Shown here piece after piece: positions 8,349 to 26,753 of a stretch of 30,313 nt of DNA. The DNA lies in the IMG/VR virus record IMGVR_UViG_3300030101_001617, positions 1 through 30,313 of that record; one strand, written 5' to 3'. The DNA is from a virus. The position numbers and the translations under genes are program-made. The notes beneath the pieces were generated by a model. That model ran no database searches. It saw only the letters and a list, made by a program, of their open reading frames with translations, and was not told the origin of the DNA. Each line of letters opens with the position of its first letter. Within the stretch, counting starts at the first letter, position 1.

Positions 8349-8779
8349 TTGATACATTTTGGTCTGACTTAAAAAGAGGAAAGCAAGTGGAGCGAATGGC
8401 TTTAGATTTAATCCACACAAAATATCCTAGTGCTTATATCATTGATGGATACAATAAGTTTTGGGATATTTACGTTCCAGAGTTAGAAGTTGGCATTGAA
8501 GTTAAGTTTGATGAAAAATCTAAGTATACTGGTAATATTGTAGTAGAAATAGCATTTAATGGAACAAAGTCTGCTCTATGTGTGACTAAGGCGAAGTATT
8601 GGATGTTTTATGATGGTTATGGTTTTGTAGTAATAAAACCTGATAGAATATGGGATTGTATAAATGACAATAAATTAGTGCCTGTAAATTTTATAGGAAA
8701 GGGAGATACAAAACAAAAAACTGCTTATCTGATAAAGAAAAGCATTTTGTATCAATACAAAGAATATGGAGAAAGTTGA
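8345..8779 (+). CDS. PD-(D/E)XK endonuclease (resolvase-like) in the terminase operon
   Basis: The 144-residue protein has a compact PD-(D/E)XK core: E16 in the first helix (VERMALDLIHTKYP), D41 in FWDIYVPELEVG, and the E52-x-K54 pair in GIEVKFDEKS. A strand rich in aromatics and basic residues follows (SALCVTKAKYWMFYDGYGFV). Phages often carry such a nuclease for resolving branched DNA or for host DNA breakdown. Here it sits between the small and large terminase genes and overlaps both, by 4 and 14 bases, so it is made together with the packaging motor. It could trim branched concatemers before packaging. The family is well supported; the substrate is unknown. Confidence 0.75.
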   Translation: MIDTFWSDLKRGKQVERMALDLIHTKYPSAYIIDGYNKFWDIYVPELEVGIEVKFDEKSKYTGNIVVEIAFNGTKSALCVTKAKYWMFYDGYGFVVIKPDRIWDCINDNKLVPVNFIGKGDTKQKTAYLIKKSILYQYKEYGES

Positions 8780-9977
8780 GCTTAATGAGAAATACCAATC
8801 TCTTTTCAAAAGTGACACTAGGTATAATGTTATAACTGGAGGTAGGGGTTCTGGAAAATCTTTTGCAGTAGCAGTGTTTCTTGTACTGCTTACTTATGAG
8901 AAAAACAATAAAGTTCTATTTACTAGATTTACTATGACCTCTGCGGGTATGAGTATCATTCCTGAGTTTATAGAGAAGCTAGAACTTATGGGGGTTGCCA
9001 ATCAATTCAGTATCACAAAGACTGAAATCATAAACAATCTAACAGGGAGTTCAATATACTTCTCTGGTATCAGAACTGCAAGTGGAGACCAGACTGCAAA
9101 GCTTAAATCTATCAGTGGTATAAATACCTTTGTGCTGGATGAAGCAGAGGAGCTTACTGATGAAGAGAGCTTTGACAAGATTGATTATTCTATTCGTGCC
9201 AAGGGTGTAAAGAACAGATGCTTGTTAATTCTAAACCCTACTACAAGAGAACATTGGATTTACCAGAGGTTTTATCAGAACAGAGATATTCCAGATGGAT
9301 TTAATGGTCATAAGGAAAATGTGAATTATATACATACCACTTACATGGACAATTTATCACACCTAAGTGACTCTTTTGTCAAGCAGGTTGAGACGATGAA
9401 AGTTCGTAGACCTGATAAATTTAAGCATCAGATAATGGGAGGTTGGTTACAAAGAGCAGAGGGTGTTGTCTTTACCGATTGGCAAGTTGGACAATTTAAT
9501 GAGGATATAGATTTAAAGGCATGGGGATTGGACTGGGGATTCTCACGAGACAGTTCGGCTCTTGTAAGAGTAGCAATCGATAAAGATAGAAAAATAATAT
9601 GGGCAAAAGAATATCTGTATAAAAAAGGATTGGTTACTTCTAATCTATATGATGAATGCATCAGACACGCAGGAAAGGAGCTAATAATCTGCGATAACTC
9701 TGAGCCACGCTTAATTGCCGAATTGTCAGCCAGAGGTCTTAATTTAAGTCCCACGATAAAAAAGAAAGGTAGTATCTTATCTGGTATTGCACTTATGCAA
9801 GACTATACGATAAATGTAGATGGAGAGAACTTAGTCAAAGAGTTCAATAACTATTCTTGGGCTATCAATGGTATAAAACCGATTGATTCCTACAACCATT
9901 TGATTGACAGCCTTCGATACGCAGTTCAATATATGCTTACTCGTTCAGTGCCTAAAGGAATGTATATTGTAAAATAA
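8766..9977 (+). CDS. terL: Terminase large subunit (PBSX/Terminase_3 type)
   Basis: This 403-residue protein is the DNA-packaging motor and nuclease. The ATPase domain has Walker A GGRGSGKS at 25-32 and Walker B FVLDEAEE at 122-129 with E126. The RNase H-like nuclease domain has three aspartates in the usual spacing: D256 in WGLDWGFS, D310 in IICDNSEP and D381 in HLIDSLRYA. The order and length match terminases of the PBSX group. It docks on the portal, encoded far away at 26753. It is the last gene of the early/replication block; a promoter starts within two bases of its stop and a terminator follows at 10083. The ATG 8766 overlaps the nuclease gene. Confidence 0.95.
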   Translation: MEKVELNEKYQSLFKSDTRYNVITGGRGSGKSFAVAVFLVLLTYEKNNKVLFTRFTMTSAGMSIIPEFIEKLELMGVANQFSITKTEIINNLTGSSIYFSGIRTASGDQTAKLKSISGINTFVLDEAEELTDEESFDKIDYSIRAKGVKNRCLLILNPTTREHWIYQRFYQNRDIPDGFNGHKENVNYIHTTYMDNLSHLSDSFVKQVETMKVRRPDKFKHQIMGGWLQRAEGVVFTDWQVGQFNEDIDLKAWGLDWGFSRDSSALVRVAIDKDRKIIWAKEYLYKKGLVTSNLYDECIRHAGKELIICDNSEPRLIAELSARGLNLSPTIKKKGSILSGIALMQDYTINVDGENLVKEFNNYSWAINGIKPIDSYNHLIDSLRYAVQYMLTRSVPKGMYIVK

Positions 9978-10015: not shown

Positions 10016-10112
10016 AATTTCTTTACTTTTAATAAATATATTAGTTTTTTCATTGAAATTGTTTTAGTTAGTAATTAGTTTGAGCCACTCTTCGGAGTGG
10101 TTCTTTTTTTTT
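10016..10112 (+). ncRNA. Candidate small RNA between a promoter and a terminator
   Basis: The promoter at 9979-10009 predicts a start near 10016 and the strong terminator ends at 10112, leaving a transcript of about 95-100 bases. The stretch holds only a 6-codon frame (ATG 10012, which may precede the start) and is AT-rich before the final hairpin. It could be a small regulatory RNA, or only a short leader before termination. This is inferred from the signals alone. Confidence 0.3.
10083..10112 (+). terminator. Intrinsic terminator after the terminase operon
   Basis: AGCCACTC and GAGTGGTT form an 8-pair stem (one G-U) closed by a TTCG tetraloop, then C and a run of nine Ts. It ends the replication/packaging transcription unit. 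Confidence 0.85.
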
Positions 10113-14077: not shown

Positions 14078-14276
14078 GCATAATATTAATATATCTATTC
14101 TTGTATATAAAGTTTATATATAAATATAAGTTAACTAATATTTATATAGGTGAATATAAATATATGTGAATCTTATATTAATATAAATATATATAGTTTA
14201 ATATTTATGTGCCAATGATGCAGTTATAATATTTTAAGTCATTTAGTACAAAAAAGTAATTTTAAGTTTATTTAAT
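14078..14276. other. Very AT-rich gap before the late genes; candidate origin or late promoter
   Basis: The 199 bases contain no gene and no TTTG-N19-TAnnTTTG promoter. Tracts of TATA/AATAT alternate with few G or C. AATATAAATATAT occurs at 14153-14165 and 14180-14192 (27 bases apart), with inverted forms such as AATATTTATATA nearby. A DNA-unwinding element or a promoter read by the phage sigma-like factor are both possible; the sequence does not decide. Confidence 0.45.
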
Positions 14277-14978
14277 ATGAGAAAAACATTGAGAGAAATA
14301 CAAGTGCCATCTTCTCTGTATGACATCAGCTTAGGTGACTATCAGAAGTACATGAAGGTTGTAGAGAAGCAAGGTAATGAAAATGCAAATGAGTTCATAA
14401 ATCAAAAATTAATTGAGATATTTTGCAAAATACCCTTAAATGAAGTTCAGACTATACCACTGAAGGAATATGATAAAATACTTACTGTTCTTAGAGATGC
14501 TTTTGAAGAAAAGCCAGAACACAAACTTTTATTTGAATTTTATGATATAAAGATGGGGTTTATACCTAAGTTAGATGAAATATCTCTAGGGGAATATATA
14601 GACATTGAGAATAATATTTCTGATTGGCAAAAATTACATATCGCCATGTCTGTATTGTATAGACCTGTAAACTACCAAAAAAATGAAAGTTATACTATAG
14701 CTCCTTATACAGCTAAAGAAGAAATGCAACACATGATGAAGGAAATGCCACTTGGCATTGCTATGGGAGCTATGGTTTTTTTTTACGATTTAGGGATGGA
14801 ATTGTCGAAGGCTACCCTGAATTATATGGAAAAGACCTTGAAGGACAAGAGCAAGATTTCTCAGCCCAATCAAACTTCTCCTCTAGATGGGGATGGTTTA
14901 GCTCAATTTACAAACTTAGCGGAGGAGATATACTCAAATTTGACAGTATTACCTCACAACCCCTTTTCAAATGTCTAA
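14277..14978 (+). CDS. Tail assembly chaperone-like protein (zero-frame product)
   Basis: The 233-residue product opens the structural block. It begins MRKTLREIQVPSSLYDISLG and DYQKYMKVVEKQGNENANEF, continues with IPLNEVQTIPLKEYDKILTV and SLGEYIDIENNISDWQKLHI, and has LYRPV and MPLGIAMGAMVFFYDLG later. This repeated 'SLGxYxxhexxhsD' layout is found in Bacteroidota phage tail genes that act like lambda G/GT chaperones upstream of the tape measure. A T9 run at 14776-14784 lets ribosomes slip to the -1 frame, which stays open to 15052 and ends in an ATGA overlap with the next gene. The zero-frame end (after the slip) is 64 residues. The chaperone role is inferred from family style and the frameshift. 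Confidence 0.7.
   Translation: MRKTLREIQVPSSLYDISLGDYQKYMKVVEKQGNENANEFINQKLIEIFCKIPLNEVQTIPLKEYDKILTVLRDAFEEKPEHKLLFEFYDIKMGFIPKLDEISLGEYIDIENNISDWQKLHIAMSVLYRPVNYQKNESYTIAPYTAKEEMQHMMKEMPLGIAMGAMVFFYDLGMELSKATLNYMEKTLKDKSKISQPNQTSPLDGDGLAQFTNLAEEIYSNLTVLPHNPFSNV
14777..14783 (+). promoter_or_regulatory. Candidate -1 frameshift site T_TTT_TTT
   Basis: In the zero frame the codons are GTT TTT TTT TAC, giving the slippery heptamer T TTT TTT within a run of nine Ts. After slipping, reading continues in the -1 frame for 89 codons to TGA 15050-15052. The true shift could lie a little downstream, or the T run could carry a sequencing error. Confidence 0.55.
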
Positions 14979-15052
14979 ATTTATTGGTGTTTGAGAAAGA
15001 AAAAACAGAATTAGAACAAGCCATGATAAAAAAATCATATAAAGGAAAATGA
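14783..15052 (+). CDS. Frameshift extension of the tail chaperone (-1 frame, GT-like)
   Basis: This frame has no start codon before ATG 15023 and so must be reached by frameshifting from 14277; the fusion would be about 258 residues. Its translation looks more protein-like than the zero frame: SSRWGWFSSIYKLSGGDILK, then FDSITSQPLFKCLNLLVFEK and EKTELEQAMIKKSYKGK. The W-x-W...LAGGD-like motif and the 'FDxITxxPLxxCLxxLxxEKxK' helix are typical of conserved tail/chaperone C-terminal domains. Its TGA forms ATGA with the next gene, the coupling used throughout this genome, which supports real translation to that point. A T-run indel joining one continuous gene is the main alternative. Confidence 0.65.
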   Translation, partial: LRFRDGIVEGYPELYGKDLEGQEQDFSAQSNFSSRWGWFSSIYKLSGGDILKFDSITSQPLFKCLNLLVFEKEKTELEQAMIKKSYKGK

Positions 15053-15537
15053 AAAGTTACTATAAGCTTATTGATTCTATATTTGGTTATCTCAATGGTA
15101 ACGAAAGTATAAATACAGTTACAACTGGAGACATATTTGAAGTAGACTTGTCAAAACATACTATATTTCCTTTGGCACACATCATAGTAAATGAGGTAGC
15201 TTTTGAACAGCATTTCATGAACTTCTCTCTAACAATACTTGCAATGGATGTTGTTGATGAAACTAAATCTGATAAGCAATCCACATCTAGTCCTCACCTT
15301 GGTATGGACAATAAACAAGACATACTAAACACCATGCTAAGTGTTATCAATGGATTGCAAAGCTCTCTAAGAAGAGGTGGTTTAGAAAGTGATGGATTTG
15401 AGCTTAACGAATCTGCTTCTGCTACATTATTCGAGGATAGAATGGAATCTCTGTTTACAGGATGGTCTCTATCTTTGAGTGTTCAGGTGGCAAATAATGA
15501 TATACAAATAATAAATTCAACTGGCACATCATGTTAG
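15049..15537 (+). CDS. Tail terminator / tail completion-like protein
   Basis: The 162-residue protein begins MKSYYKLIDSIFGYLNGNES, then DLSKHTIFPLAHIIVNEVAF, FSLTILAMDVVDETK and DILNTMLSVINGLQSSLRRG, ending with FTGWSLSLSVQVAN. The 'FPLxHIIVNxVxF...hxhhhMDxVDE...hLNxxLxVxNxLxxxLRRG' pattern matches a conserved Bacteroidota phage tail protein that by size and position resembles tail terminators (alpha/beta ring proteins). It is coupled to the frameshift product by ATGA. The family is recognisable; the exact tail role is inferred. Confidence 0.65.
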   Translation: MKSYYKLIDSIFGYLNGNESINTVTTGDIFEVDLSKHTIFPLAHIIVNEVAFEQHFMNFSLTILAMDVVDETKSDKQSTSSPHLGMDNKQDILNTMLSVINGLQSSLRRGGLESDGFELNESASATLFEDRMESLFTGWSLSLSVQVANNDIQIINSTGTSC

Positions 15538-16127
15538 TAAGTAAGTTCAAGAATACACAGAAATACATGGCTTCTTTTACAGAGAGGTTAAAAAAGCTGA
15601 TTCAAATAGAAATAGGTCGTAAAAGAACAAGAACTTATAGCGGAGCTTATGGGACAAGAAATATTACTTCAGCCATAGATTTTTCAGGCAAAGGAAGAAA
15701 AACCCTCAAAACCTCATCTAAGTTTCCAAAAATGAACACTAAGGGATTTACACTTGGTCATAGGTTTTTAATAAGTGGATTGAGTTATCTGGAAAAAGTT
15801 GATAAAGGAGGGAAGGTAAAAGCTGATATAGATCATCTTACAGATTGGGTAAGGAGAAAAGCTAGACTCAGGGATTTAGAAACTGGCAAACTAATAGAAC
15901 AGACTCCTGCATCATTAAAGTATGTAGCAGGTAAAATAAAGAAAAAGTTATCATCTCAAGGCATGAAGCCTACTAACTTTATTGATGATGCTATCAATAA
16001 GGCTATGGAGAAGATTAACGCTATTGAACAACCTATAGTTGAAGATGTTCATATAAATCACGAAGAGATACTTACCAGATTAGGATTTATTAAACAAGGA
16101 GAAGATTTTATACTTAAACAAGAATAG
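15531..16127 (+). CDS. Basic virion/tail protein of unknown role
   Basis: This 198-residue basic protein starts MLVSKFKNTQKYMASFTERL and contains IEIGRKRTRTYSGAYGTRNI, FSGKGRKTLKTSSKFPKMNT and LTDWVRRKARLRDLETGKLI. The middle 'IxxWVxRKxLR' segment followed by a helix SLKYVAGKIKKKLSSQGMKP and FIDDAINKAMEKI resembles the HK97-gp10-like neck/tail completion style, where a 'hxxWhxxKG...(A/S)xxIxxxIxxxGhxPTxFhxxAhxxh' pattern is common. I therefore think it is a neck or tail completion protein. It sits between a tail terminator-like gene and tail fibre-like genes and overlaps the former by 7 bases. Confidence 0.6.
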   Translation: MLVSKFKNTQKYMASFTERLKKLIQIEIGRKRTRTYSGAYGTRNITSAIDFSGKGRKTLKTSSKFPKMNTKGFTLGHRFLISGLSYLEKVDKGGKVKADIDHLTDWVRRKARLRDLETGKLIEQTPASLKYVAGKIKKKLSSQGMKPTNFIDDAINKAMEKINAIEQPIVEDVHINHEEILTRLGFIKQGEDFILKQE

Positions 16128-16129
16128 TT

Positions 16130-17305
16130 ATGGCAACATCAACAGGAGAAGTCGAAAAAATCAATGTTAGAAGTCCGTATTATTTAACATTTGATTCTAC
16201 AGGCGCACCAACCAGCTCAAGTGATTCCACACCAGTAGAACCTCTTCCAAGTGAATATAACCCACCAGCAACATTAACGCAACCATTAGCATGTGGAGGG
16301 CAGATTAACGTTGGTGAAGATGTTGGCACTAGAATATATCAGGTGGACATGACTAATAGAAGTGGTACTTTCACAATAAACTACACTATATACAAACCAG
16401 TAAAAATAACTACTCAAGTCTCAGGAGAATCTGCTGTAAATAGGGGTTTTTTAGGTGGAGATGAACATGAGCAAGACTTAATTGACCAAGGTATTTCTTC
16501 GTCAGAATTAACAGGATTAACTTCTGGAGCTTTTGCTCAGGGTACTATTGATATAGTTAAGTCTACAGATGCCGCAGCTACCCTAAGTATTACAGTTGAA
16601 GCGCCATTACAAACAGACCAATATCAGTTATCAATGACTTGTCCTGCTGAAACCGCAGCATCAGAAGCATCATTCTCCTTACCTTCTACTACTCCAACCA
16701 ACACAAATTTACTGACTGGTTCACAAACCTTAGGTATTTCATTTGGCAACACTTACAGCTCTTTTCCTGCATCACCATCTTTAAAAGTTTATGTTGGCGG
16801 ATCACTTATACAGACTATAAGTCCTGCTGCTCTTAACATAGGTAGCAGTGTAACTCCAACCATTATATTTAGTAATATCTCTGGATTAGAATGGGCTTCA
16901 AACGTTCAGTCTTTTGGTCAGTCTCCTATTATTGTAGATAACTCATCCTTCGTCTCTGGCAATAACACAATAGAATTACAGCTAGACTGGGATTTGAATG
17001 ATTGGAATGCTGATATCTATATATCACAATTATTTTTTTATAGCACAGGAATATTCAGAAACACAACCGCCAACGAATATCAGTTTGCATATCCTTTTTA
17101 TCAAGGTACATTTAGCTTTTATGGGGCTACAAGTAGATTCACTACCGAAGTATTACAAATAGGAGGGGTAGGTCATTACTTTACCACAGGAATAAGGTAT
17201 AGTTTTATTTATAATACAACAACCAGAACTGTTTCTAATTCAACAGACACCAATAGATTTAATATAAACATACAAAGTTATGCGTATGGAGGGGTGAAAC
17301 TTTAG
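16130..17305 (+). CDS. Tail surface/baseplate protein with SPYY domain and lectin-like part
   Basis: The 391-residue product has a short N-terminal motif KINVRSPYYLTFDSTG, which recurs at the start of Bacteroidota phage tail proteins, then a Pro/Ser/Thr-rich linker (TPVEPLPSEYNPP). A beta-rich domain follows with CGGQINVGEDVGTRIYQVDM and a strand array to about residue 175. The C-terminal half is rich in Ser, Thr, Asn and aromatics (GNTYSSFPASPSLKVYVGGS, LQLDWDLNDWNADIYISQLF) and reads as a jelly-roll or carbohydrate-binding sandwich. It is probably exposed on the virion tail. No enzyme motif is seen. The stop lies 11 bases before the next gene. Confidence 0.65.
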   Translation: MATSTGEVEKINVRSPYYLTFDSTGAPTSSSDSTPVEPLPSEYNPPATLTQPLACGGQINVGEDVGTRIYQVDMTNRSGTFTINYTIYKPVKITTQVSGESAVNRGFLGGDEHEQDLIDQGISSSELTGLTSGAFAQGTIDIVKSTDAAATLSITVEAPLQTDQYQLSMTCPAETAASEASFSLPSTTPTNTNLLTGSQTLGISFGNTYSSFPASPSLKVYVGGSLIQTISPAALNIGSSVTPTIIFSNISGLEWASNVQSFGQSPIIVDNSSFVSGNNTIELQLDWDLNDWNADIYISQLFFYSTGIFRNTTANEYQFAYPFYQGTFSFYGATSRFTTEVLQIGGVGHYFTTGIRYSFIYNTTTRTVSNSTDTNRFNINIQSYAYGGVKL

Positions 17306-17316
17306 ACAAAAAAATT

Positions 17317-18417
17317 ATGGCAACAATATCACAAGCTACTTTAGAAATTTACATATACACAGGGGTTGCTGGTCAACTACCTTCAACACCACAATACACC
17401 CTTACTAAATCTAAATTAAACTCTCAAGATATAATTATATTTGAGGTGTCTGAGCTTATAAAAGATTACATAGATATAAATTTTACTGGTGATTATGAAA
17501 ACATAATTCAAAATGTATGGGTAGACTTTAAAACGACAAGGACTTTTACCTTTTCTGATAATTCTACAGCTACAGATGCAAATCCGCTTGAGAAGCGTGT
17601 TTTGGCATTTTCAGCATATGGAGACTTTAAAGATGGAATCAACCCATCGCTAAGTAATACTTTTTTAGCATCAAACACTAATTTTTATGTAAAGAAAGGA
17701 GAAAAAGCTTATGTTCCAGTATACGTTTCTACTGATGGTGTTTACAAAGTTGAATATTTTCAAGGAAGCACATCTCTTGTTGCTTATACAATAGGTGGTT
17801 CAATAAAAGAAATTAGGACTGATACTACAGAAATTAGATCAGACACAAATGTTTATCGTGCTGATATAGTCTCTTTAAGAACTCCAGATTCTACAAAGTT
17901 TCAAAGACAGACAGAAGTACCGATCAACTCTGATAAAGTAACAATTACCTCACCAGATGGAAGTACAGAAACTAGATTTATCAAAAGTATTGAAGAGTGT
18001 AAACATACACCATTTAAAATATCTTTTCTTAATAAATTTGGCGTAATCCAAGACTTATGGTTTTTCAAACGTAGAGATGATACATTTGAATCAGAAAGAG
18101 AAACATACAAAAGATCAATTATAGATATTGGAACAACAGGTGTAAGTTTTTCTGCACAAGGTCATTCTAGACAGACTATAGATGTCAGGGCAACTCAAAA
18201 AATAAGACTAAATACTGGATTTGTTACAGAGGATCATAACGAAGTAATTAAGCAGTTAATGGTTACTGAACATTGTTATATACATGAAGATTCTAAAGTT
18301 ATCCCTATTGTTCCGATTACTAATTCATTCAATGAAAAAAAAGAAGTAAACGAAAAGCTTATAAACTTTACAGTAGAGTTTGAATTGGCAAACAATTATA
18401 TACAAGATATAAGATGA
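17317..18417 (+). CDS. Tail/baseplate protein
   Basis: This 366-residue protein has a beta-rich N-terminus (QATLEIYIYTGVAGQLPSTP, IIFEVSELIKDYIDINFTGD) and NVWVDFKTT, then a second half with TPFKISFLNKFGVIQDLWFF and KRRDDTFESERETYKRSIID. The segment 'hxFxNxxGxxQdhWFFKRxxDxhxxxxxxYKR' is a conserved feature of tail proteins in Bacteroidota phages, and the N-terminal 'IxFEISxLIxDYI' also recurs. It likely forms part of the tail tip with the large protein encoded next, which it overlaps by ATGA. The virion role is well supported by context, the precise one is not. Confidence 0.7.
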   Translation: MATISQATLEIYIYTGVAGQLPSTPQYTLTKSKLNSQDIIIFEVSELIKDYIDINFTGDYENIIQNVWVDFKTTRTFTFSDNSTATDANPLEKRVLAFSAYGDFKDGINPSLSNTFLASNTNFYVKKGEKAYVPVYVSTDGVYKVEYFQGSTSLVAYTIGGSIKEIRTDTTEIRSDTNVYRADIVSLRTPDSTKFQRQTEVPINSDKVTITSPDGSTETRFIKSIEECKHTPFKISFLNKFGVIQDLWFFKRRDDTFESERETYKRSIIDIGTTGVSFSAQGHSRQTIDVRATQKIRLNTGFVTEDHNEVIKQLMVTEHCYIHEDSKVIPIVPITNSFNEKKEVNEKLINFTVEFELANNYIQDIR

Positions 18418-20645
18418 TAAAAATTCAGTTATATGTTGAGCAAACCTCTGGTAGTAAGGATTACGTTAAATTAGATTTATTTGACGATGAATCTATTACG
18501 CTTGTTTCTTCAATTCAAGATGCCAAAGACATTGCTAAAATATTCTCTGACTTCTCTAGAACATTCAAAATACCTGCTAATAGCGTAAATAACAAATATT
18601 TCAAACACTTCTACAATCCAGATATTGATGGATATGATGCTAACCTAAAAAGAGAAGCTAAAATATATTTAAATTATCAGCCATACAGAGAAGGATTTTT
18701 ATATCTCGATTCTATAGACATGAAAAATAACAAGGTATCTTCATATACAGTTATATTTTATGGTGGCTTAATAATTCTCAAAGATAAGATTAGAGATCAC
18801 AAACTTTCATCTTTAGACATTTCAGCATATAATCATGATTACACTGCCAATCAAGTTAAGAATGGATTAGTCAACTCTTCTGCAATATTATCTGCAAATG
18901 TAATATATCCACTTATCACCACCACAAAAAGATTGTACTACGATTCAGGATCAGGTACAACTAATTATGATGGTAATCTTTATCATGCAAGTAGTCCAGA
19001 TACTAACAGAGGCTTAAAATATACTGACTTAAAACCAGCTATAAAGGTGCAGAGAATATTGGATGCTATAGAAACAAGATTTAATATATCTTTTACTGGA
19101 TTCTTTGACACTACTCCAATCACCAATCTGTATATGTGGCTCTCAAGAGAAAAAAATGACATTATAGAATATGAGGGAATAGAAGAAGAGACAGAAAAAG
19201 TAATAAGACTAGACGATACATTTGTTACTACAGATTCCTTTACTGACACTCAGCTACAAATATCACCAAGTGGTAAATGGAATTTTTCAGTTTTTGGCTT
19301 GCAGAATCATGATTACAAATCAGTCTTAACTCTTACTAATATTACTCTTACAAACGGAAATAGTGCTGCTTCTGTGATTATTACACTAAGAATAGTAGAC
19401 ACTAATACAGGTCAAGTTTTTGCTTCTAAACAAGTTTCTGGTGCTACAAGTCAAACGCTTGACACTGGATTTATATATGCATATAACTACTCAAGAAGAT
19501 ATAATATGGTTTGGGAAGTTATATCTGACACTGCAATTAAATTTAACGTTACAGTAAAAGTTTCTAGACACGCAAGGCTAGGAGCAGAAGAGCAATCTGC
19601 TACATACACTGTAAATGGAGGTAGCCTAATTCAAACAGCAGAAACCTTTGATATAGGAAAACATTTTCCAGATATGAAAGTAATAGATTTTTTATCTGGT
19701 CTTTTTAGGATGTTTAATCTTACTGCATTTGTTCAGCAACCAGTTGCTTCAATTCCTGTAATAGAAGTTAGAACTCTAGACGACTTTTATGCTGATGCAG
19801 TAAATAATATGAGTAAGGGGACTATTGATATTACAGATTTTGTAGATGTAGATTCTCATACAATATCACCTGCAAGACCATTTACTAAGGTTTCTTTTGA
19901 ATATCAAGAAACAGATACAGTTTTAATGGCACAGCATCTAGCTAAATTTGATAAGGTGTTTGGCAATAGTTTTTACGAAGAGCTGGACTATTCGGATATT
20001 GGTCAAAATTATGAGATTAAATTACCATTTTCTCATTTAAAATATGAGAGATTATATGATAAAGGTGACAATTCAGTAACCGACATACAATGGGGGTATG
20101 CAGCAGGAGGTAGTTTCAAACATGAGGAGCTTACACCTCCAAAGGGAAATTATAATTCTGTAAATATAAAACCACTTTTATTTTATGGTATACATCAAAC
20201 TATAACAGGTGGTGAAGGTATAAACTGGATAGGAGATGGTACTGGGAGTGCTGATGAATTATCTGCTTATTGGAGACCATCTAATTCTAATGAAGAAGGA
20301 AGTGTATCCACTGCTCCTGCCCATAACCTAAATTTTGATAGTGAGTTTGACGAATGGAACAGGATTGATTATGCAGACTTTGCTACTGATGGAACAGTTA
20401 GTGATAATTCTTTGTTTCTGACATATTATAGAAACTATATATTGAGTCTTTTTAGTGACAAAAAAAGATTATATAAATTTAAATGTTTTTTACCAGCTAA
20501 AACACTCACTCAATATAAGCTAAACGATCAGTTTAAAATAGGTGATAAATTATATAGAATAAACTCTATTAAAACTAACCTTAATACTGGAGCATCAGAA
20601 CTTGAATTGTTGAATCTTATACCTGACATAGACACAATAATATGA
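18414..20645 (+). CDS. Large baseplate/tail-tip protein
   Basis: At 743 residues this is the largest protein in the window. The N-terminal domain carries SIQDAKDIAKIFSDFSRTFK, IPANSVNNKYFKHFYNPDID and YDANLKREAKIYLNYQPYRE, a strongly conserved signature of tail-tip proteins in phages of Bacteroidota. A middle part rich in Ser, Thr and strands (about 250-400) looks like an inserted beta domain, and the C-terminal part has HFPDMKVIDFLSGLFRMFNL, then a LYRINSIKTNLNTGASELEL ending that resembles hub-like proteins. It may act as the tail hub that closes the tube. No peptidase or lysozyme motif is visible. It overlaps both neighbours by ATGA. Confidence 0.75.
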   Translation: MIKIQLYVEQTSGSKDYVKLDLFDDESITLVSSIQDAKDIAKIFSDFSRTFKIPANSVNNKYFKHFYNPDIDGYDANLKREAKIYLNYQPYREGFLYLDSIDMKNNKVSSYTVIFYGGLIILKDKIRDHKLSSLDISAYNHDYTANQVKNGLVNSSAILSANVIYPLITTTKRLYYDSGSGTTNYDGNLYHASSPDTNRGLKYTDLKPAIKVQRILDAIETRFNISFTGFFDTTPITNLYMWLSREKNDIIEYEGIEEETEKVIRLDDTFVTTDSFTDTQLQISPSGKWNFSVFGLQNHDYKSVLTLTNITLTNGNSAASVIITLRIVDTNTGQVFASKQVSGATSQTLDTGFIYAYNYSRRYNMVWEVISDTAIKFNVTVKVSRHARLGAEEQSATYTVNGGSLIQTAETFDIGKHFPDMKVIDFLSGLFRMFNLTAFVQQPVASIPVIEVRTLDDFYADAVNNMSKGTIDITDFVDVDSHTISPARPFTKVSFEYQETDTVLMAQHLAKFDKVFGNSFYEELDYSDIGQNYEIKLPFSHLKYERLYDKGDNSVTDIQWGYAAGGSFKHEELTPPKGNYNSVNIKPLLFYGIHQTITGGEGINWIGDGTGSADELSAYWRPSNSNEEGSVSTAPAHNLNFDSEFDEWNRIDYADFATDGTVSDNSLFLTYYRNYILSLFSDKKRLYKFKCFLPAKTLTQYKLNDQFKIGDKLYRINSIKTNLNTGASELELLNLIPDIDTII

Positions 20646-20788
20646 TAAAAGGAATATTAGACTTATTGAATATTGATGATTTTTATGGTGTATCTGAAAA
20701 TATAGATATAGCAAAAGGAAAATATAGAGCTGTAAGAAACATGAAAGATGTTATTAACCACACAAAAAGAAGAATTTATAGATCATGA
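20642..20788 (+). CDS. Small protein between tail tip and tape measure
   Basis: A 48-residue frame linked to both neighbours by ATGA overlaps. It reads MIKGILDLLNIDDFYGVSEN, then IDIAKGKYRAVRNMKDVINH and a basic end TKRRIYRS. It is probably two short helices. The double coupling makes translation likely. It may be a tail assembly factor, but no family is known to me. Confidence 0.6.
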   Translation: MIKGILDLLNIDDFYGVSENIDIAKGKYRAVRNMKDVINHTKRRIYRS

Positions 20789-22563
20789 AAAAGATATTAG
20801 TAGAATTTAAAGTATTAGATACATCTGGCTCTATAAATAAAACAGCCGAGCAGATGGGTAATCTTGGTAGAGAAACCCAAAAAACTACGAAAAAATTTAA
20901 TAAAAATACAGCTAACGCTGGGCTTAATAATGCAATACTCATGGAAACCAGTAGACTTGCATCTGATGCTAGTTTTGGTTTTATGGCAATAGGGAACAAC
21001 TTGTCTCAGCTTATCAACTTGTTTCAGATGTCAGCAAATGCTGCGGGAGGAGTACGAGCTGCTTTTTCTAAGTTACTTACTTTAAATTCTGCAATAATTA
21101 TAGGTATACAACTTCTTATTTCATTTTTACCTAAAATGATAAAGAAATTTCAAGAATCAAGAAAAGAAGCCGATTCTTTATCAAGAGCTTTAGGTCTTGC
21201 AGAAGCAAGTACAAGAGATTTTCAATCTCAAGTAAGTGTTTTGATGAGTGCTATAGATAGTGGTACTTTATCTTTTGTAGAGAGTGAAGAAGCCCTCAAG
21301 AAGCTAAAAAAAATAACAGGTTTAAATAATATTGAATTAGATGCTAGTAATAAACTTACTAAAGAATCAATAGAACTTCTTGGAAAACAAATTAAAATAA
21401 GGATACTAGAAACAAAAATACAGGCTGTACTTGAAAGAATAAAAGCACGAGAGAAAAAGTTCTTTGAGGAAATAGCAGAAATTAGACAAAAAGAAAATAG
21501 TAAAATATTTAAGTTTTTTACTCTTTTACAGTCAGCTTTTCAACCTGTAATAGATTTCTTCAATAGATTTATTGAGAGGTATAATAATGTTATTAGAGCT
21601 ATTGCCGATAATCCTATACTTAGAAACTTAGGATTGGGTGCTTTAGGTGGTCTTATAATTGAAGTAAACGAAAAACTTGACAGTCAAGAACAGAAATTAC
21701 TTCAAAGAAAAAAGATACAAGACCAACTTTCAGAAGTAGAGAAGGAACGCAACAAAGATATGGCTGAAAGTGAATCTATATTGAATGATTTAACTAATCA
21801 AATGCTGCAGCTTGGTACTGCCGAGGATAATCTTATAGGTAAAAGACATGAATTTCTCGAAATAACAGAAAAACAGATATCTGCCATACAAAGAGAAAGG
21901 GAAGCATTTTTAGAGTTAAATAGATTAAAGCTCAGATTTGAAGAGGATTTAATTAAGTTTCAAGGTCGGTCTGCAACCTTTGCTATAGAAAGGGTTATGG
22001 CGGAGGATGAATTAATGACAAAAAGAATAGAAAGAGAAAATATTGGAGCTGTCAATAGTATAAAAGCTCAAGAAGCTACAGCCGCTAAAGATTTACTTAT
22101 TGCAAAAAAAACGAATGAAGCAAAAAAAGAAATGCTTTTTGATTTAGGAGATGCTATTGTTCAAGCAGCAGGTGAAGGAAGCGCAGTAGGTAAAGCTGCT
22201 GCTGTAGCTATGGCTATAATGAATGTTCATGAAGGTATAACCAGCGCATTAACGCTTAAACCTCCGTTTAACTTTATAGCAGCAGCTACAGTAGCTCTTA
22301 AAGGTTTTGCCTCAGTTAGATCAATAATGTCAACTAAGATTCCACAAGGTGGTAGTGGTGCAGGTAGTTCAGGATCAATGAGAGGTGCAGGGCAACAAAG
22401 CGTAACCGCGCCAGATTTCAATATAGTAGGAGCTTCAGAGACTTCACAACTTGGTAGAGTATTAGCACAAAATCAAGAAGCAATAAAAGTAAACTTAGTA
22501 TATGATGATTTAGTAAATTTTGGCAATAAAGCAGATAGAACAACAAATGTAGCAGCAATATGA
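20785..22563 (+). CDS. Tape measure protein
   Basis: The 592-residue protein has the expected tape-measure layout. A short beta start (MKKILVEFKVLDTSGSINKT) leads into long charged coiled-coil stretches, for example around 165-245 and 310-450. There are hydrophobic segments at about 99-117 (LNSAIIIGIQLLISFLP) and 480-525 (VAMAIMNVHEGITSALTLKP), and a Gly/Ser-rich tail (GGSGAGSSGSMRGAGQQ). The segment RLASDASFGFMAIGNNLSQL is a conserved feature in Bacteroidota phage tape measures. By the usual rule of about 0.15 nm per residue, a tail near 90 nm is expected, suggesting a siphovirus-type particle; that is an estimate. It is preceded by tail-tip genes rather than followed by them. Confidence 0.85.
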   Translation: MKKILVEFKVLDTSGSINKTAEQMGNLGRETQKTTKKFNKNTANAGLNNAILMETSRLASDASFGFMAIGNNLSQLINLFQMSANAAGGVRAAFSKLLTLNSAIIIGIQLLISFLPKMIKKFQESRKEADSLSRALGLAEASTRDFQSQVSVLMSAIDSGTLSFVESEEALKKLKKITGLNNIELDASNKLTKESIELLGKQIKIRILETKIQAVLERIKAREKKFFEEIAEIRQKENSKIFKFFTLLQSAFQPVIDFFNRFIERYNNVIRAIADNPILRNLGLGALGGLIIEVNEKLDSQEQKLLQRKKIQDQLSEVEKERNKDMAESESILNDLTNQMLQLGTAEDNLIGKRHEFLEITEKQISAIQREREAFLELNRLKLRFEEDLIKFQGRSATFAIERVMAEDELMTKRIERENIGAVNSIKAQEATAAKDLLIAKKTNEAKKEMLFDLGDAIVQAAGEGSAVGKAAAVAMAIMNVHEGITSALTLKPPFNFIAAATVALKGFASVRSIMSTKIPQGGSGAGSSGSMRGAGQQSVTAPDFNIVGASETSQLGRVLAQNQEAIKVNLVYDDLVNFGNKADRTTNVAAI

Positions 22564-24068
22564 AAATAATAGAATTACTTATAGACGAAGAAGCAATGCT
22601 TTCAGGCATTGAAGCTATTTCGATAGTGGACAAACCAGCTATAGAGGAAAACTTTATAGCTCTTAACAAACAACCTAAGCTAAAACTTGCAGAGGTAGAT
22701 AAAGAGAAGCGTATTCTTATGGGGGCTGCTTTAGTTCCTGACAGAAACATCTACAGAAAAGAAGGTGAAGATGAGTTTTATATTTATTTCTCTAGTGACA
22801 CTGTAAGAAAAGCTAGTGAGTTATTTTTAATGAGGGGTAATCAAAACAAGTCTACCTTAGAACATCAAGCTGATCTACATGGTTTATCAGTTGTAGAGAG
22901 TTGGATTGTAGAGGATGAAACCCATGACAAAACTAGAAAGTATGATCTAGATATGCCAGTAGGAACATGGATGGTCTCTATGAAAGTTAATAATGAAGAG
23001 GTATGGGAAAAGTATGTTAAAACTGGACTTGTAAAAGGATTTTCTATAGAAGGTTATTTCACTGATAAGATAAATATGTCTGAGATTAGAAATGATATTC
23101 AAGAGACTTATGCCAAAGAAATATTATTAGAGATACAAGATTTTATAGTATCCAAAAAATATAAACTAGCAACTTATAACGATTATCCAAAAGCAGTTGT
23201 AAATAATGCAAAAAGAGTATTAGAATTTGTAGATGAAAATGGCTGGGGTTCTTGCGGAACACCTGTAGGAAAACGCAGAGCATCGATGTTGGCAACAAAA
23301 TCTAATCTATCGGTATCAACCATAAAAAGGATGAGAAGCTTTCTTCTTAGACATGCAAAAGACTTAGAGGTGTCTACATCATATACAGATGGTTGTGGAA
23401 AACTTATGTATGATGCATGGGGAGGAAAAGCAGGGCTTAGATGGGCAGAATCAAAACTAAAAGAGCTTGGGGAGATAGATTTAATTACACAAGTAATAGA
23501 TGAAAAAATAGCCATCATTGATGATAGAGCAGCTTATTCTACCAAAGAAATGGCTATTGAAAAAGCCAAGGATATGGGATGCGATGGATTTCATGTTCAT
23601 GTATTAGATGATAAAGAGTGGTTTATGCCATGTGAGAAGCACAAACTTGCTAAAGTTGGCAAAAGAGGTGGCATTGTAAAAAGTCCAAAAGCACCAAAAT
23701 CTGGCACACCTAATCCTAATCCCAAAGGCAAAGGTACAGCTAGAGGAACAGCAAAAGGTAAAACTGGTGCTAAAGTATCTGCAAGAGACAGAGCAACATT
23801 AAAAAAGAAATCTGATGAATTTAATAAGAAATATAAAAGTAAATTGGGGTATGGTGTCACTACTGGTGTCCTTGCTTCTGTTTATCAGCGTGGGCTTGGA
23901 GCTTACAATACATCTCGTAGCCCAAAAGTGCGTTCAGCTAGTCAGTGGGCTTTTGCAAGGGTTAATGCCTTTCTCTACTTAGTAAAGAATGGTAGACCAC
24001 AAAACGCAAAATATACTACCGATAACGATCTACTTCCAAAGAAACATCCTAAATCTAGAAGAGCATGA
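22560..24068 (+). CDS. XkdF-like prohead protease fused to internal domains and a DUF5824-like C-terminus
   Basis: The 502-residue protein joins several parts. Residues 1-166 follow the XkdF protease pattern: RILMGAALVPDRNIYR, FYIYFSSDTVRKASELFL, H102 in STLEHQ and S162 in VKGFSIEGYF, a likely His/Ser pair of this protease class. About 205-305 is a separate helical domain (YPKAVVNNAKRVLEF ... LMYDAWGGKAGLRWAESKL) common in phage head proteins. About 330-360 carries DMGCDGFHVHVLDDKEWFMP, a small motif often found as an independent unit. A basic Gly/Lys linker leads to about 405-502, with YNTSRSPKVRSASQWAFARV and NAKYTTDNDLLPKKHPKSRR, matching DUF5824. It probably matures the prohead; the linked domains may be released by cleavage. 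Confidence 0.8.
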   Translation: MKIIELLIDEEAMLSGIEAISIVDKPAIEENFIALNKQPKLKLAEVDKEKRILMGAALVPDRNIYRKEGEDEFYIYFSSDTVRKASELFLMRGNQNKSTLEHQADLHGLSVVESWIVEDETHDKTRKYDLDMPVGTWMVSMKVNNEEVWEKYVKTGLVKGFSIEGYFTDKINMSEIRNDIQETYAKEILLEIQDFIVSKKYKLATYNDYPKAVVNNAKRVLEFVDENGWGSCGTPVGKRRASMLATKSNLSVSTIKRMRSFLLRHAKDLEVSTSYTDGCGKLMYDAWGGKAGLRWAESKLKELGEIDLITQVIDEKIAIIDDRAAYSTKEMAIEKAKDMGCDGFHVHVLDDKEWFMPCEKHKLAKVGKRGGIVKSPKAPKSGTPNPNPKGKGTARGTAKGKTGAKVSARDRATLKKKSDEFNKKYKSKLGYGVTTGVLASVYQRGLGAYNTSRSPKVRSASQWAFARVNAFLYLVKNGRPQNAKYTTDNDLLPKKHPKSRRA

Positions 24069-24229
24069 ATTACTTTAGAAGAAGAATAAACAAATTCAGA
24101 AACAAATTTACCCATAGCAGGACATCTCCAGACAATGATAGAAGGGGATGTCTTTGCCCAGATGGAAGGTCTTACCATAGAGATTGTTGCGATGGAAGCC
24201 TTCAAGCTCAGGGTATTGGAAAAGTATAA
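24065..24229 (+). CDS. Small Cys-rich virion-region protein
   Basis: This 54-residue protein begins with a basic stretch (MNYFRRRINKFRNKFTHSRT) and ends with the Cys-rich motif RRGCLCPDGRSYHRDCCDGS followed by LQAQGIGKV. The four cysteines C29, C31, C41 and C42 could bind zinc. A 'GCLCxDGxYxxxCCxGxxxxQGIG' motif is repeated in small or terminal parts of head and tail proteins of marine phages. It is coupled to the protease fusion by ATGA and lies before the scaffold gene. The function is unknown; a small capsid or neck component is plausible. Confidence 0.65.
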   Translation: MNYFRRRINKFRNKFTHSRTSPDNDRRGCLCPDGRSYHRDCCDGSLQAQGIGKV

Positions 24230-24278
24230 AAGGCAACAAAAATTTAATAGTAGGTTTATTAGTTATAAAATTTTAAGC

Positions 24279-24767
24279 ATGGAAAATAATTCAACAACAA
24301 TTCTAAATGAGATACTTGAAAAACTAAGTGTTCTCACTAAAGAAGATGAAATGGCACAAGGTATTGAAAACGAAGATGTCGTTTCTGAAAAAGTAGAAGC
24401 ATCTTCACAAGAGCTTTCTACTGATCTTAAAGACGAAGATGAAGCTCCTGCTCCTACTCCAGAACCAGTTGAAGCTGAAGAAGCTCCTGACGTAAAGACT
24501 TATGTTACAATGGATGCTTTTAATGAAGTTACAACAGGTTTAAAAGCAGAGATAGAAGCAATCAAGCAAAAAATGATGGCTGAAGTAGATAAATACAAAA
24601 GCCAGAAAGAAGAATTATCTAAAGAAGTAGAAAAGCTTTCAGCAGAACCAGCAGCAGAGCCTATTAAGCACAGCCCTGAGTCTGACTCTAAAAAGCTAGA
24701 CCTTAATCTAGGTAATAACAGACCGCAAACTACTCTTGATAGGGTTATGCAAAGAATTTCTAAATAA
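24279..24767 (+). CDS. Capsid scaffolding protein
   Basis: The 162-residue product starts at ATG 24279 (MENNSTTILNEILEKLSVLT). The open frame extends upstream to 24135, but that part would overlap the Cys-rich gene and lacks the charge pattern. The body is acidic and Glu/Ala/Pro-rich (DEDEAPAPTPEPVEAEEAPD), followed by a coiled coil (LKAEIEAIKQKMMAEVDKYK) and a C-terminal helix TTLDRVMQRISK. An acidic coiled-coil protein just before the major capsid gene and after the protease is a standard scaffold arrangement. The short C-terminal basic helix would contact the capsid protein. Removal by the upstream protease is expected. Confidence 0.75.
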   Translation: MENNSTTILNEILEKLSVLTKEDEMAQGIENEDVVSEKVEASSQELSTDLKDEDEAPAPTPEPVEAEEAPDVKTYVTMDAFNEVTTGLKAEIEAIKQKMMAEVDKYKSQKEELSKEVEKLSAEPAAEPIKHSPESDSKKLDLNLGNNRPQTTLDRVMQRISK

Positions 24768-24780
24768 TAAATTATAAAAA

Positions 24781-25704
24781 ATGGCAACAACAACATCAAT
24801 CACATCAACTTACGCTGGAGAGTTTGCTGGTAAATACATATCGGCTGCACTTTTAAGCGGAGACACTTTGGCTAATGATCTAATCACCATTAAGCCTAAT
24901 GTAAAATTTAAAGAAGTGTTAAAGAAAGTAGCAACTGATGACATCGTAAAAGATGCAACTTGTGACTACACAGACACTAGCACAATCACTTTAACTGAAA
25001 GAATCTTACAGCCAGAAGAATTTCAAGTAAATTTAACTGTATGTAAAAAAGACTTTATCTCAGATTGGGAAGCAGTATCTATGGGCTTTTCAGCATACTC
25101 AAATTTGCCTGAAAACTTCACTGATTTTCTTTTAGCTCATGTAGCTGATAAAGTAGCACAAAGAATGGAAACAAACATTTGGAATGGTGCTAACGGAACT
25201 ACTGGACAGTTTGACGGATTCAAGCAAACTTTAGCATCAGATTCAGATGTAGTAGACGTTACTGCTACCGATGTAACTGCTGCAAACGCTATTGCTCAGA
25301 TCGGAGCTGTAGCAGATGCAATTCCTTCTACAGTATATGGAAAAGAAGATTTATTCATCTATGTAGCTTCTAACGTATACAGAGCTTATGTAAGAGCTTT
25401 AGGAGGATTTTCTAGTAACGTAGGAGCTGCTGGTACTGACAACAAAGGTACTCAATGGTTCAATGGAGGTAACCTTACTTTCGATGGAATCAATGTAGTT
25501 TTAGCGAAAGGTTTACCAGCTAATATTATGGTAGCAGCTCAAAAGAGCAACCTATTCTTTGGAACTGGACTATTATCTGATCATAACGAAGTTAAAGTTA
25601 TCGATATGGCAGATGTAGATGGATCACAAAACGTAAGAGTGGTAATGCGTTTTACTGCTGGTATCCAGCATGGTATTGGAAGCGAAATTGTACTTTATAC
25701 ATAA
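24781..25704 (+). CDS. Major capsid protein (HK97-fold type)
   Basis: The 307-residue protein has the composition and order of a phage capsid subunit. It has a Thr/Ser-rich N-terminus MATTTSITSTYAGEFAGKYI, a long E-loop-like stretch with FQVNLTVCKKDFISDWEAVS, and the helix FTDFLLAHVADKVAQRMETN which opens into IWNGANGTTGQFDGF. A domain with KEDLFIYVASNVYRAYVRAL and a C-terminal part with VMRFTAGIQHGIGSEIVLYT follow. The codons are more regular than elsewhere and richer in GC (for example gtagcaGCTCaa patterns), as expected for a highly expressed gene. A strong terminator follows. The HK97 fold is inferred from layout; the capsid role from position after scaffold and protease. Confidence 0.85.
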   Translation: MATTTSITSTYAGEFAGKYISAALLSGDTLANDLITIKPNVKFKEVLKKVATDDIVKDATCDYTDTSTITLTERILQPEEFQVNLTVCKKDFISDWEAVSMGFSAYSNLPENFTDFLLAHVADKVAQRMETNIWNGANGTTGQFDGFKQTLASDSDVVDVTATDVTAANAIAQIGAVADAIPSTVYGKEDLFIYVASNVYRAYVRALGGFSSNVGAAGTDNKGTQWFNGGNLTFDGINVVLAKGLPANIMVAAQKSNLFFGTGLLSDHNEVKVIDMADVDGSQNVRVVMRFTAGIQHGIGSEIVLYT

Positions 25705-25724
25705 AATAGCTTTCTAAATTATAT

Positions 25725-25760
25725 AAGGGTAGGTAAACGTCTGTCTGCCTACCCTTTTTT
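25725..25760 (+). terminator. Intrinsic terminator after the major capsid gene
   Basis: AAGGGTAGG and CCTACCCTT form a perfect 9-pair stem around 14 bases, followed by six Ts. Confidence 0.9.
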
Positions 25761-25784
25761 GTTAAACTTAAAATATTTAAAATT

Positions 25785-26333
25785 ATGTCATGTACTTTAA
25801 CAGGGGGTAGACAAAAGCCATGTAAAGATGCTGTAGGAGGTATAAAAAAAATATATTTTGTAGATTTTGGGGGACTAAATGATATTACTACAAGTAACGA
25901 TGAAGTGACTGATCTCAATGGTACGTTCAATTACCATAGATATGATGTCAAAGGCAACTCATCATTAGAAACAAATATCAATACGTCTTTAGAGAATGGC
26001 ACAACATTCTTTGAGCAGAATCTATCAGTCTCTTTACATAAACTTACCAAAGAAGATAACAAAGAGCTAAAGCTTATTGCTTTCGGTAGACCACATATAG
26101 TTGTACAAACTTTTGACGATAAATTCCTATTAGTTGGGATGCAGCATGGTGCTGAAGTCACAGGCGGAACTATGGTAACTGGAACAGCGATGGGAGATAT
26201 GCAAGGCTATACACTTGAGTTCACAGCAAATGAAACAACAATGCCTAACTTTATAAATGGAGGTCAAGACAACAATCCATTTGCAGGTTTAGGTTCAGCT
26301 AATGAAACTCAGTCTACTTTAAGAACTCCATAA
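25785..26333 (+). CDS. Tail tube (major tail) protein-like
   Basis: The 182-residue protein begins MSCTLTGGRQKPCKDAVGGI and KKIYFVDFGG, a start shared by tail tube-like proteins of Bacteroidota phages. It continues with a beta-rich body (FNYHRYDVKGNSSLETNINT, LENGTTFFEQNLSVSLHKLT) and a C-terminal part AEVTGGTMVTGTAMGDMQGY with TLEFTANETTMP. The repeating 'GTxF..xQxhxhxhxKLxxxdxxxhxxhxxGRxhhhV' layout fits the beta-barrel tube fold. A terminator on each side (25725 and 26357) isolates it as a probable high-level transcript. The tube role is inferred from layout and family style. Confidence 0.75.
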   Translation: MSCTLTGGRQKPCKDAVGGIKKIYFVDFGGLNDITTSNDEVTDLNGTFNYHRYDVKGNSSLETNINTSLENGTTFFEQNLSVSLHKLTKEDNKELKLIAFGRPHIVVQTFDDKFLLVGMQHGAEVTGGTMVTGTAMGDMQGYTLEFTANETTMPNFINGGQDNNPFAGLGSANETQSTLRTP

Positions 26334-26356
26334 GGGGGAGATAGTTCGATCAAATC

Positions 26357-26380
26357 AGGGGAGGTATACTCCCCTTTTTT
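26357..26380 (+). terminator. Intrinsic terminator after the tail tube gene
   Basis: AGGGGAG and CTCCCCT form a perfect 7-pair stem around GTATA, followed by six Ts. Confidence 0.9.
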
Positions 26381-26417
26381 GTTTAAAAACAATTTCTTAC
26401 TTTTAGGTTTATTATAT

Positions 26418-26753
26418 ATGGAGATATTATCTACTTCTACAGATAGCCAATCTATTAAGATTATACCAAGGGCTGATGCAACAAGTCCTACCTTTACTCT
26501 ATTTGATAAATCTCAAAGAAAAACTTCGACAGTTAGTGTGTCAAAGAGTGATTCTGGTGATTATATGGTTTTATCTGGAAGCTTTGCTTTGAAAGAAGGA
26601 AACACTTACGGATTCACTGTAAAAGATAGTTCAACGACTATATATAAGGGTTTAATATTTTGCACTGATCAGACAAACCTTGATAGGTATACTGTAAATG
26701 ATCAAGAATATACTCACGAAGAAAGTTTTGACAACGAATACGTTATTATATAA
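26418..26753 (+). CDS. Conserved Bacteroidota phage structural protein
   Basis: The gene is taken from ATG 26418 (MEILSTSTDSQSIKIIPRAD), because an upstream start at 26379 would lie in the terminator. The 111-residue product is all strands: TLFDKSQRKTSTVSVSKS, GDYMVLSGSFALKEGNTYGF, TVKDSSTTIYKGLIFCTDQ, and ends with YTVNDQEYTHEESFDNEYVI. The 'EGxxYxhxVxxxxxhIYkxxIFCTnQ...hdkYtvNdxxYxxeeTxDNdYII' pattern is a recurrent feature of small proteins beside the portal gene in Bacteroidota phages. A virion role, perhaps at the neck or as a decoration, is likely but not established. It shares one base with the portal start. Confidence 0.65.
   Translation: MEILSTSTDSQSIKIIPRADATSPTFTLFDKSQRKTSTVSVSKSDSGDYMVLSGSFALKEGNTYGFTVKDSSTTIYKGLIFCTDQTNLDRYTVNDQEYTHEESFDNEYVII

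Follow-up and report, generated by a model that had tools for sequence, protein, structure and literature searches.

The tail-assembly chaperone gene of phage lambda is located just before the gene encoding the tape measure protein. A −1 shift generates the long minority form of this chaperone, gpGT, in addition to gpG (PMC5009743). The lambda shift occurs near the end of g, and there is little double coding. In phage P2 the E/E+E′ products are similarly related by a −1 shift, and both forms are annotated as tail proteins; the zero frame runs for 7 codons beyond the annotated site, and the gene immediately precedes the tape measure gene T. The SPP1 proteins gp17.5 and gp17.5* are a short and a long product from one start with a T-rich slip site, the putative −1 shift taking place at UUUUUUC (PMC6316719). 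The stated lengths of the SPP1 proteins, 173 aa compared with 112 shared, place the end of the zero frame ∼61 codons past the site (PMC6316719), and the gene directly precedes the tape measure gene 18. Transcriptional slippage sites such as that of Thermus thermophilus dnaX contain nine A or T in the coding region (PMC5009743, PMC1088944), and at dnaX-type sites two products are made with no requirement for a ribosomal stimulator.

The virus gene described here displays, by sequence conservation, the G/GT-type combination of a short zero-frame product and a longer −1 product with a shared N terminus. Its slip site contains at least nine T, in contrast to the T6C of SPP1. The initial annotation of the gene pointed out that, unlike in lambda, the zero frame continues well beyond the site. 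This difference holds, although 17.5/17.5* of SPP1 provides a precedent, and a long zero-frame tail alone is therefore not new. Compared with dnaX, a cellular gene whose shifted product is shorter and for which slippage was measured, the slip in the virus gene is read from sequence.

The sole isolate records that matched the family are the Nonlabens (Persicivirga) phages P12024S and P12024L. Genes 38/39 of P12024S and 40/41 of P12024L belong to the same family, with T9 at the same place and the same −1 layout, but differ in that the zero frame ends ∼25 codons after the run. They contain the motifs FFYHLG and WGWY/WSWY, with the −1 pattern L.FR...YPELY...W.WY. In both records (P12024L genes 40/41, P12024S genes 38/39; L002 8007-8701, L003 8016-8710) the two reading frames are annotated as separate hypothetical proteins; their sequences suggest that each pair is one recoded gene.

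Layout and conservation of the two-frame gene

The window analysed is the complete stretch of DNA in virus record IMGVR_UViG_3300030101_001617, which comprises 30,313 bases. The components of the gene are as follows:

14277..14978, + strand: zero-frame product, the short form, 233 aa (ATG at 14277, stop at 14976-14978)
14277..14783, + strand: N-terminal domain common to both predicted products, 169 residues (AlphaFold2 pLDDT 92.7 and homologues)
14776..14784, + strand: T9 run, the putative slip site (in-phase T_TTT_TTT at 14777-14783)
14783..15052, + strand: −1 frame extension, the WGW domain, 89 aa (frame relation in 359/359 loci, no ATG start, helical model)
14784..14975, + strand: doubly coded stretch, 64 codons (open zero frame, synonymous suppression, tail likeness)

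The zero-frame codons at 14775-14786 are GTT TTT TTT TAC. From 14783 the −1 frame reads LRFRDGIVEGYPELYGK...WGWFSSIYKLSGGD...KGK and ends with the TGA at 15050-15052, which forms ATGA with the ATG of the next gene at 15049. The +1 frame encounters a stop within a few codons of the slip site. The initial annotation had a zero frame ending at 14978, a −1 frame open to 15052, an in-phase T_TTT_TTT in the above codons, 64 zero-frame codons past the site and an ATGA that couples the −1 stop to the next ATG, all of which were reproduced (heptamer at 14777-14783, ATGA at 15049-15052). The observation in the window is real and no artefact. In the proposed mechanism one gene with one start would give rise to two proteins that share the 169-residue N-terminal domain. 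Without a slip the 233 aa product would be made, while a slip at T9 into the −1 frame would generate a product of 258 aa in total that ends in the helical WGW domain. The 64 codons that follow the run would encode the tails of both products.

The window contains a single other T9 run, at 10085-10112, which follows the hairpin CCACTC TTCG GAGTGG. Located 3′ of the terminase large subunit gene (terL), the hairpin and T9 read as an intrinsic terminator. The ∼200 bases just 5′ of the slip gene (14078-14276) are very AT-rich and non-coding, with repeated ATATAAATAT-like words, and are a possible late promoter region.

A search of viral contigs with the window protein alone returned no close relative, and a nucleotide search with the window matched no phage record, so profiles were needed. 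A DNA pattern scan requiring T9 yielded, together with the isolates, 112 loci with both features. As this sample is biased by the T9 requirement it was left out of the run-length counts, and the searches were redone with profiles independent of the T run, comprising N-domain profiles that end at or before the site and a small joined-protein profile. A narrower genome scan returned only five metagenome-assembled contigs. The two domains were paired by a six-frame HMM search over all loci. In nine loci with the N domain the C domain was not detected; eight of these end at most 80 bases from the domain, and the −1 frame of the ninth, the divergent L117, was read directly. It should be noted that most homologues are metagenome contigs that are related to each other, and the counts and clusters below are thus not independent events. 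The hosts are probably marine Bacteroidetes, judging by the two isolates and by metagenome bins named Bacteroidetes. A survey of the literature, restricted to open papers, found no report of recoding in this WGW-domain family.

The WGW domain is in the −1 frame of the N-terminal domain in all 359 loci that contain both domains, and none of the 359 has a single ORF joining the two. The −1 frame, the end of which had initially been noted as protein-like, is kept in every relative. In the 207 non-duplicate homologues that were found independently of the run, the T run is 9 (164 sequences), 10 (42) or 12 (1) bases long and is never shorter than 9; these runs occur in all three codon phases. By comparison the coding sequence 5′ of the site in the homologues, 148,686 nt in all, contains only two A/T runs of at least 8, indicating that the presence of at least nine T at the site in every homologue that covers it reflects more than chance. 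Across the virus loci the number of T runs falls to 62 at length eight and rises to 229 at nine; most T9 runs in these loci are therefore likely to be the slip site. The alignment of homologues proposed in the initial annotation hence revealed conservation of both frames and of the run, and a miscounted run is not consistent with members containing 10 T, in which the two domains are still in different frames. These sequence data strongly support a programmed −1 frame change at the T run.

Level of the slip

Whether the slip is made by RNA polymerase or by the ribosome is less clear-cut. Polymerase slippage, either alone or with a ribosomal contribution, has slightly better than even odds, and in this mechanism RNA polymerase would add one U at the run. 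A purely ribosomal slip, in which two Phe tRNAs make a tandem −1 move on T_TTT_TTT, is credible at somewhat under even odds; the flanking T residues would then be explained by the encoded amino acids alone, and the view that the gene makes two products would be unaffected. To our knowledge the characterised tail chaperones all slip on the ribosome, which argues against the polymerase. This is the case for lambda G/GT (PMC5009743), with UUUUUUC as the putative site in SPP1 17.5 (PMC6316719). All 207 homologues contain an in-phase T_TTT_TTT, as a ribosomal slip would require. However, any run of nine T includes such a heptamer, which is consequently uninformative on the level of the slip.

The length of the run is more discriminating. 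An in-phase run of 7 or 8 would be sufficient for the ribosome, yet occurs in 0/207 homologues. In its usual state the run has one extra T on each side of the heptamer, which is explicable by the amino acids at the flanks: Val, Leu, Ile or Phe before it and, after it, Tyr or Trp in the zero frame and Leu in the −1 frame. Amino acids account less readily for what happens when the flanking T is lost on one side, as the run is then longer on the other. Where C or G follows the heptamer, the codon ahead of it is TTT and brings the run back to nine in 11/11 sequences compared with 12/192 otherwise, although these represent four cases at the level of clusters (cluster-level Fisher P 8e-4). Conversely, where the codon ahead of the heptamer does not supply the flanking T, the additional T residues are on the downstream side (3/3; cluster-level P 0.03). 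A length of at least nine that is kept over three codon phases, with compensation, is the pattern expected of transcriptional slippage, and the conservation of the run rather than just of the heptamer indicates that the slip may be transcriptional, instead of or besides ribosomal. Features that stimulate ribosomal shifting were sought and gave no signal; downstream RNA structure had a mean z of −0.01 in 52 sequences, and Shine-Dalgarno-like 4-mers were present upstream in 7 of 52.

Bacterial RNA polymerase slips efficiently at 9 A or T (reviewed in PMC5009743), and in a sizeable proportion of bacterial genomes A/T runs in coding sequence begin to be visibly selected against at a length of nine (PMC1088944). 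Measurable slippage by the E. coli polymerase from 7 T (PMC6260861) shows that the threshold of nine is not absolute and weakens the case for the polymerase; the threshold may also differ in the hosts considered here. Of the initial proposal of a programmed −1 slip the frame change stands, while its assignment to the ribosome alone goes beyond the evidence.

These observations may mean, with a probability approaching one half, that in a large family of viruses probably infecting marine Bacteroidetes the tail-chaperone ratio is set by polymerase slippage at a run of at least nine T rather than on the ribosome, and that in most members ∼50-90 codons are doubly coded for two selected C-terminal tails. 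If the slip is transcriptional this would be, as far as the open literature shows, the first tail chaperone pair made in this way, and phages would have reached the short/long pair by two routes, like cells with dnaX. The Nonlabens phages are culturable, making the polymerase reading testable.

Gene neighbourhood and role of the products

The genes that define the surroundings of the slip gene in the window are listed below:

8766..9977, + strand: terminase large subunit (upstream of the slip gene in 262/262 loci where it was found)
15049..15537, + strand: next gene, 162 aa, phrog_30964 (ATGA-coupled to the −1 stop)
15531..16127, + strand: 198-aa gene (where P12024L has a weakly tail-completion-like gene)
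20785..22563, + strand: tape-measure-like protein (weak tape measure matches to phrog_3779, 2.4e-4, and phrog_3336, 2.2e-3)

The order terL, slip gene, phrog_30964 gene, further late genes and tape measure is conserved, and continues with a protease, the major capsid protein, a probable tail-tube protein and the portal. In P12024L terL is directly before the slip gene, while the phrog_30964 gene is directly downstream of it in 303/303 loci where this gene was found. P12024L gene 43, two after the slip pair, has weak matches to tail completion proteins (phrog_5, 4.2e-4; HK97-gp10_like, 0.032); the 198-aa gene of the window (15531..16127) has no tail-completion match of its own. The slip gene is thus in the late module with tail genes, apart from the tape measure. 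The tape-measure-like gene is ∼6 kb downstream in the window and ∼5 kb in relatives, and the probable tail-tube gene is ∼10 kb downstream family-wide. Unlike in G/GT-type systems, the slip gene is neither between the tail-tube gene and the tape measure gene nor adjoining the latter. The initial remark that the gene is in an unusual place, well before the tape measure, therefore applies to the whole family (∼5 kb).

The N domain is predicted with confidence (AlphaFold2 pLDDT 92.7) and resembles uncharacterised phage proteins, with no match to a solved structure in the PDB; the WGW extension is modelled as helical with a pLDDT of 80.7. The zero-frame protein of the window matches phrog_32199 (7.3e-22), as do 28/28 members. 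Matches to annotated tail proteins are weak and comprise phrog_166 ‘tail protein’ (2/28 members, best 2.2e-4), Phage_TAC_7 (1/28, E 0.0074) and one BFVD ‘tail assembly chaperone’ (E 0.059), while P2 gpE gave no profile match to the family.

A G/GT-like role appears the likeliest for the two products and is well favoured. By analogy with lambda G/GT, P2 E/E+E′ and SPP1 17.5/17.5*, the short form would be abundant and the long form scarce, and together they would bind the tape measure and bring in the tail-tube protein, the product ratio being drawn from the same comparison. An alternative, which is unlikely, is that the recoded gene acts at another stage of virion assembly, such as the head-tail joint, or in connection with the terminase. 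Such a role would suit a gene that has terL on one side and tail-completion-like genes on the other, is ∼5 kb ahead of the tape measure family-wide and has weak homology to known chaperones. Against this, short/long pairs made by a −1 shift are characteristic of the tail chaperones of dsDNA tailed phages, and the weak matches that exist are to tail proteins and Phage_TAC_7. Furthermore, in the window a 743-aa gene immediately precedes the tape measure, so no other candidate is evident there. The naming of the gene as a tail chaperone in the initial annotation is upheld with respect to its short/long −1 layout, while the role itself should be viewed as provisional in the light of the weak family matches and the distance of ∼5 kb to the tape measure. 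As a whole, the explanation that this is a two-product, slip-made gene for a G/GT-like tail-assembly chaperone is given a probability of roughly 0.77.

What is new is the existence of this family, its conserved threshold of nine, the evidence that both tails are selected, and the location of the gene. The data also suggest a function for phrog_32199 and phrog_38404, which have none, in a large group of aquatic viruses, and annotators should join the two ORFs.

Two features of the late region are of separate note. From 15049 to 27997 and in related loci the conserved late order is unusual, with the tape measure ahead of the protease, capsid, tail tube and portal. The gene at 22560-24068 encodes a prohead protease of the XkdF type (Peptidase_S78_2) fused to DUF3721 and DUF5824 domains.

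Selection on the two tails

Past the site the zero frame is open for a mean of 57 codons in 51 representatives, compared with an expected 13 codons in a codon-usage simulation that keeps the −1 peptide and 26 after codon shuffling; as the sequences are related, the combined P for this openness has descriptive value only. Among 140 pairs the difference at four-fold sites of the −1 frame is 0.147 in the overlap and 0.288 after it, compared with 0.384 at those of the single-coded upstream part, such that the count of synonymous change suggested at the outset reveals suppression in the overlap. In distant pairs, whose upstream four-fold sites are saturated (0.645), the identity of the zero-frame tails is 0.341 compared with 0.247 in simulations. 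The long open frame, the low four-fold change and the likeness of the tails therefore argue that both C-terminal tails are under selection. A constraint on the RNA may to some degree act on the overlap, although a folding signal was sought and none was found. For the study of double coding, these sequences provide an extensive natural alignment.

In the same 51 representatives the +1 frame closes ∼2 codons after the site. An early +1 stop, present in 49/51 compared with 31.8 expected, appeared to be selected; when both amino-acid sequences were fixed 49.0 were expected, which fully explains the stop, and this candidate was rejected.

If the WGW domain were a separate gene, translated from its own start or by re-initiation after the zero-frame stop, the T run would be incidental. 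P12024L offers some encouragement for this view, as the −1 frame has an ATG that overlaps the stop of the zero frame, where the record places an ORF of its own. However, as initially noted for the window, the −1 frame lacks an early start; upstream of the site there is no ATG in 308/311 loci, and none within 25 codons downstream in 306/311. In addition an alignment of 28 −1 sequences shows no variation at Leu1, Phe3 and Arg4, which immediately follow the site. The missing ATG and the invariant residues make an independent start of the −1 domain very unlikely and, as the T run is also kept (207/207), this explanation was rejected as extremely improbable. A sequencing error or pseudogene, with a miscounted T run interrupting what is really one frame of ∼258 aa, has a negligible probability and was likewise rejected on the homologue evidence: although homopolymers are error-prone, the two-frame layout recurs in 359 loci drawn from many samples as well as in the genomes of two isolates, selection also acts on the zero-frame tail beyond the run, and runs of 10 T leave the frames unjoined.

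Two outlying sequences deserve mention. L117 (− strand, near 829) is a very divergent member that retains T9 and the motif FFYQLG; its −1 extension, at 107 aa, is longer. Flavobacterium phage 6H contains a marginal relative (L378 10352-10927, − strand; HMM E 0.002), in which the zero frame ends five codons after an in-phase T_TTT_TTC and the −1 frame stops at once; a later stretch of the same frame looks protein-like.
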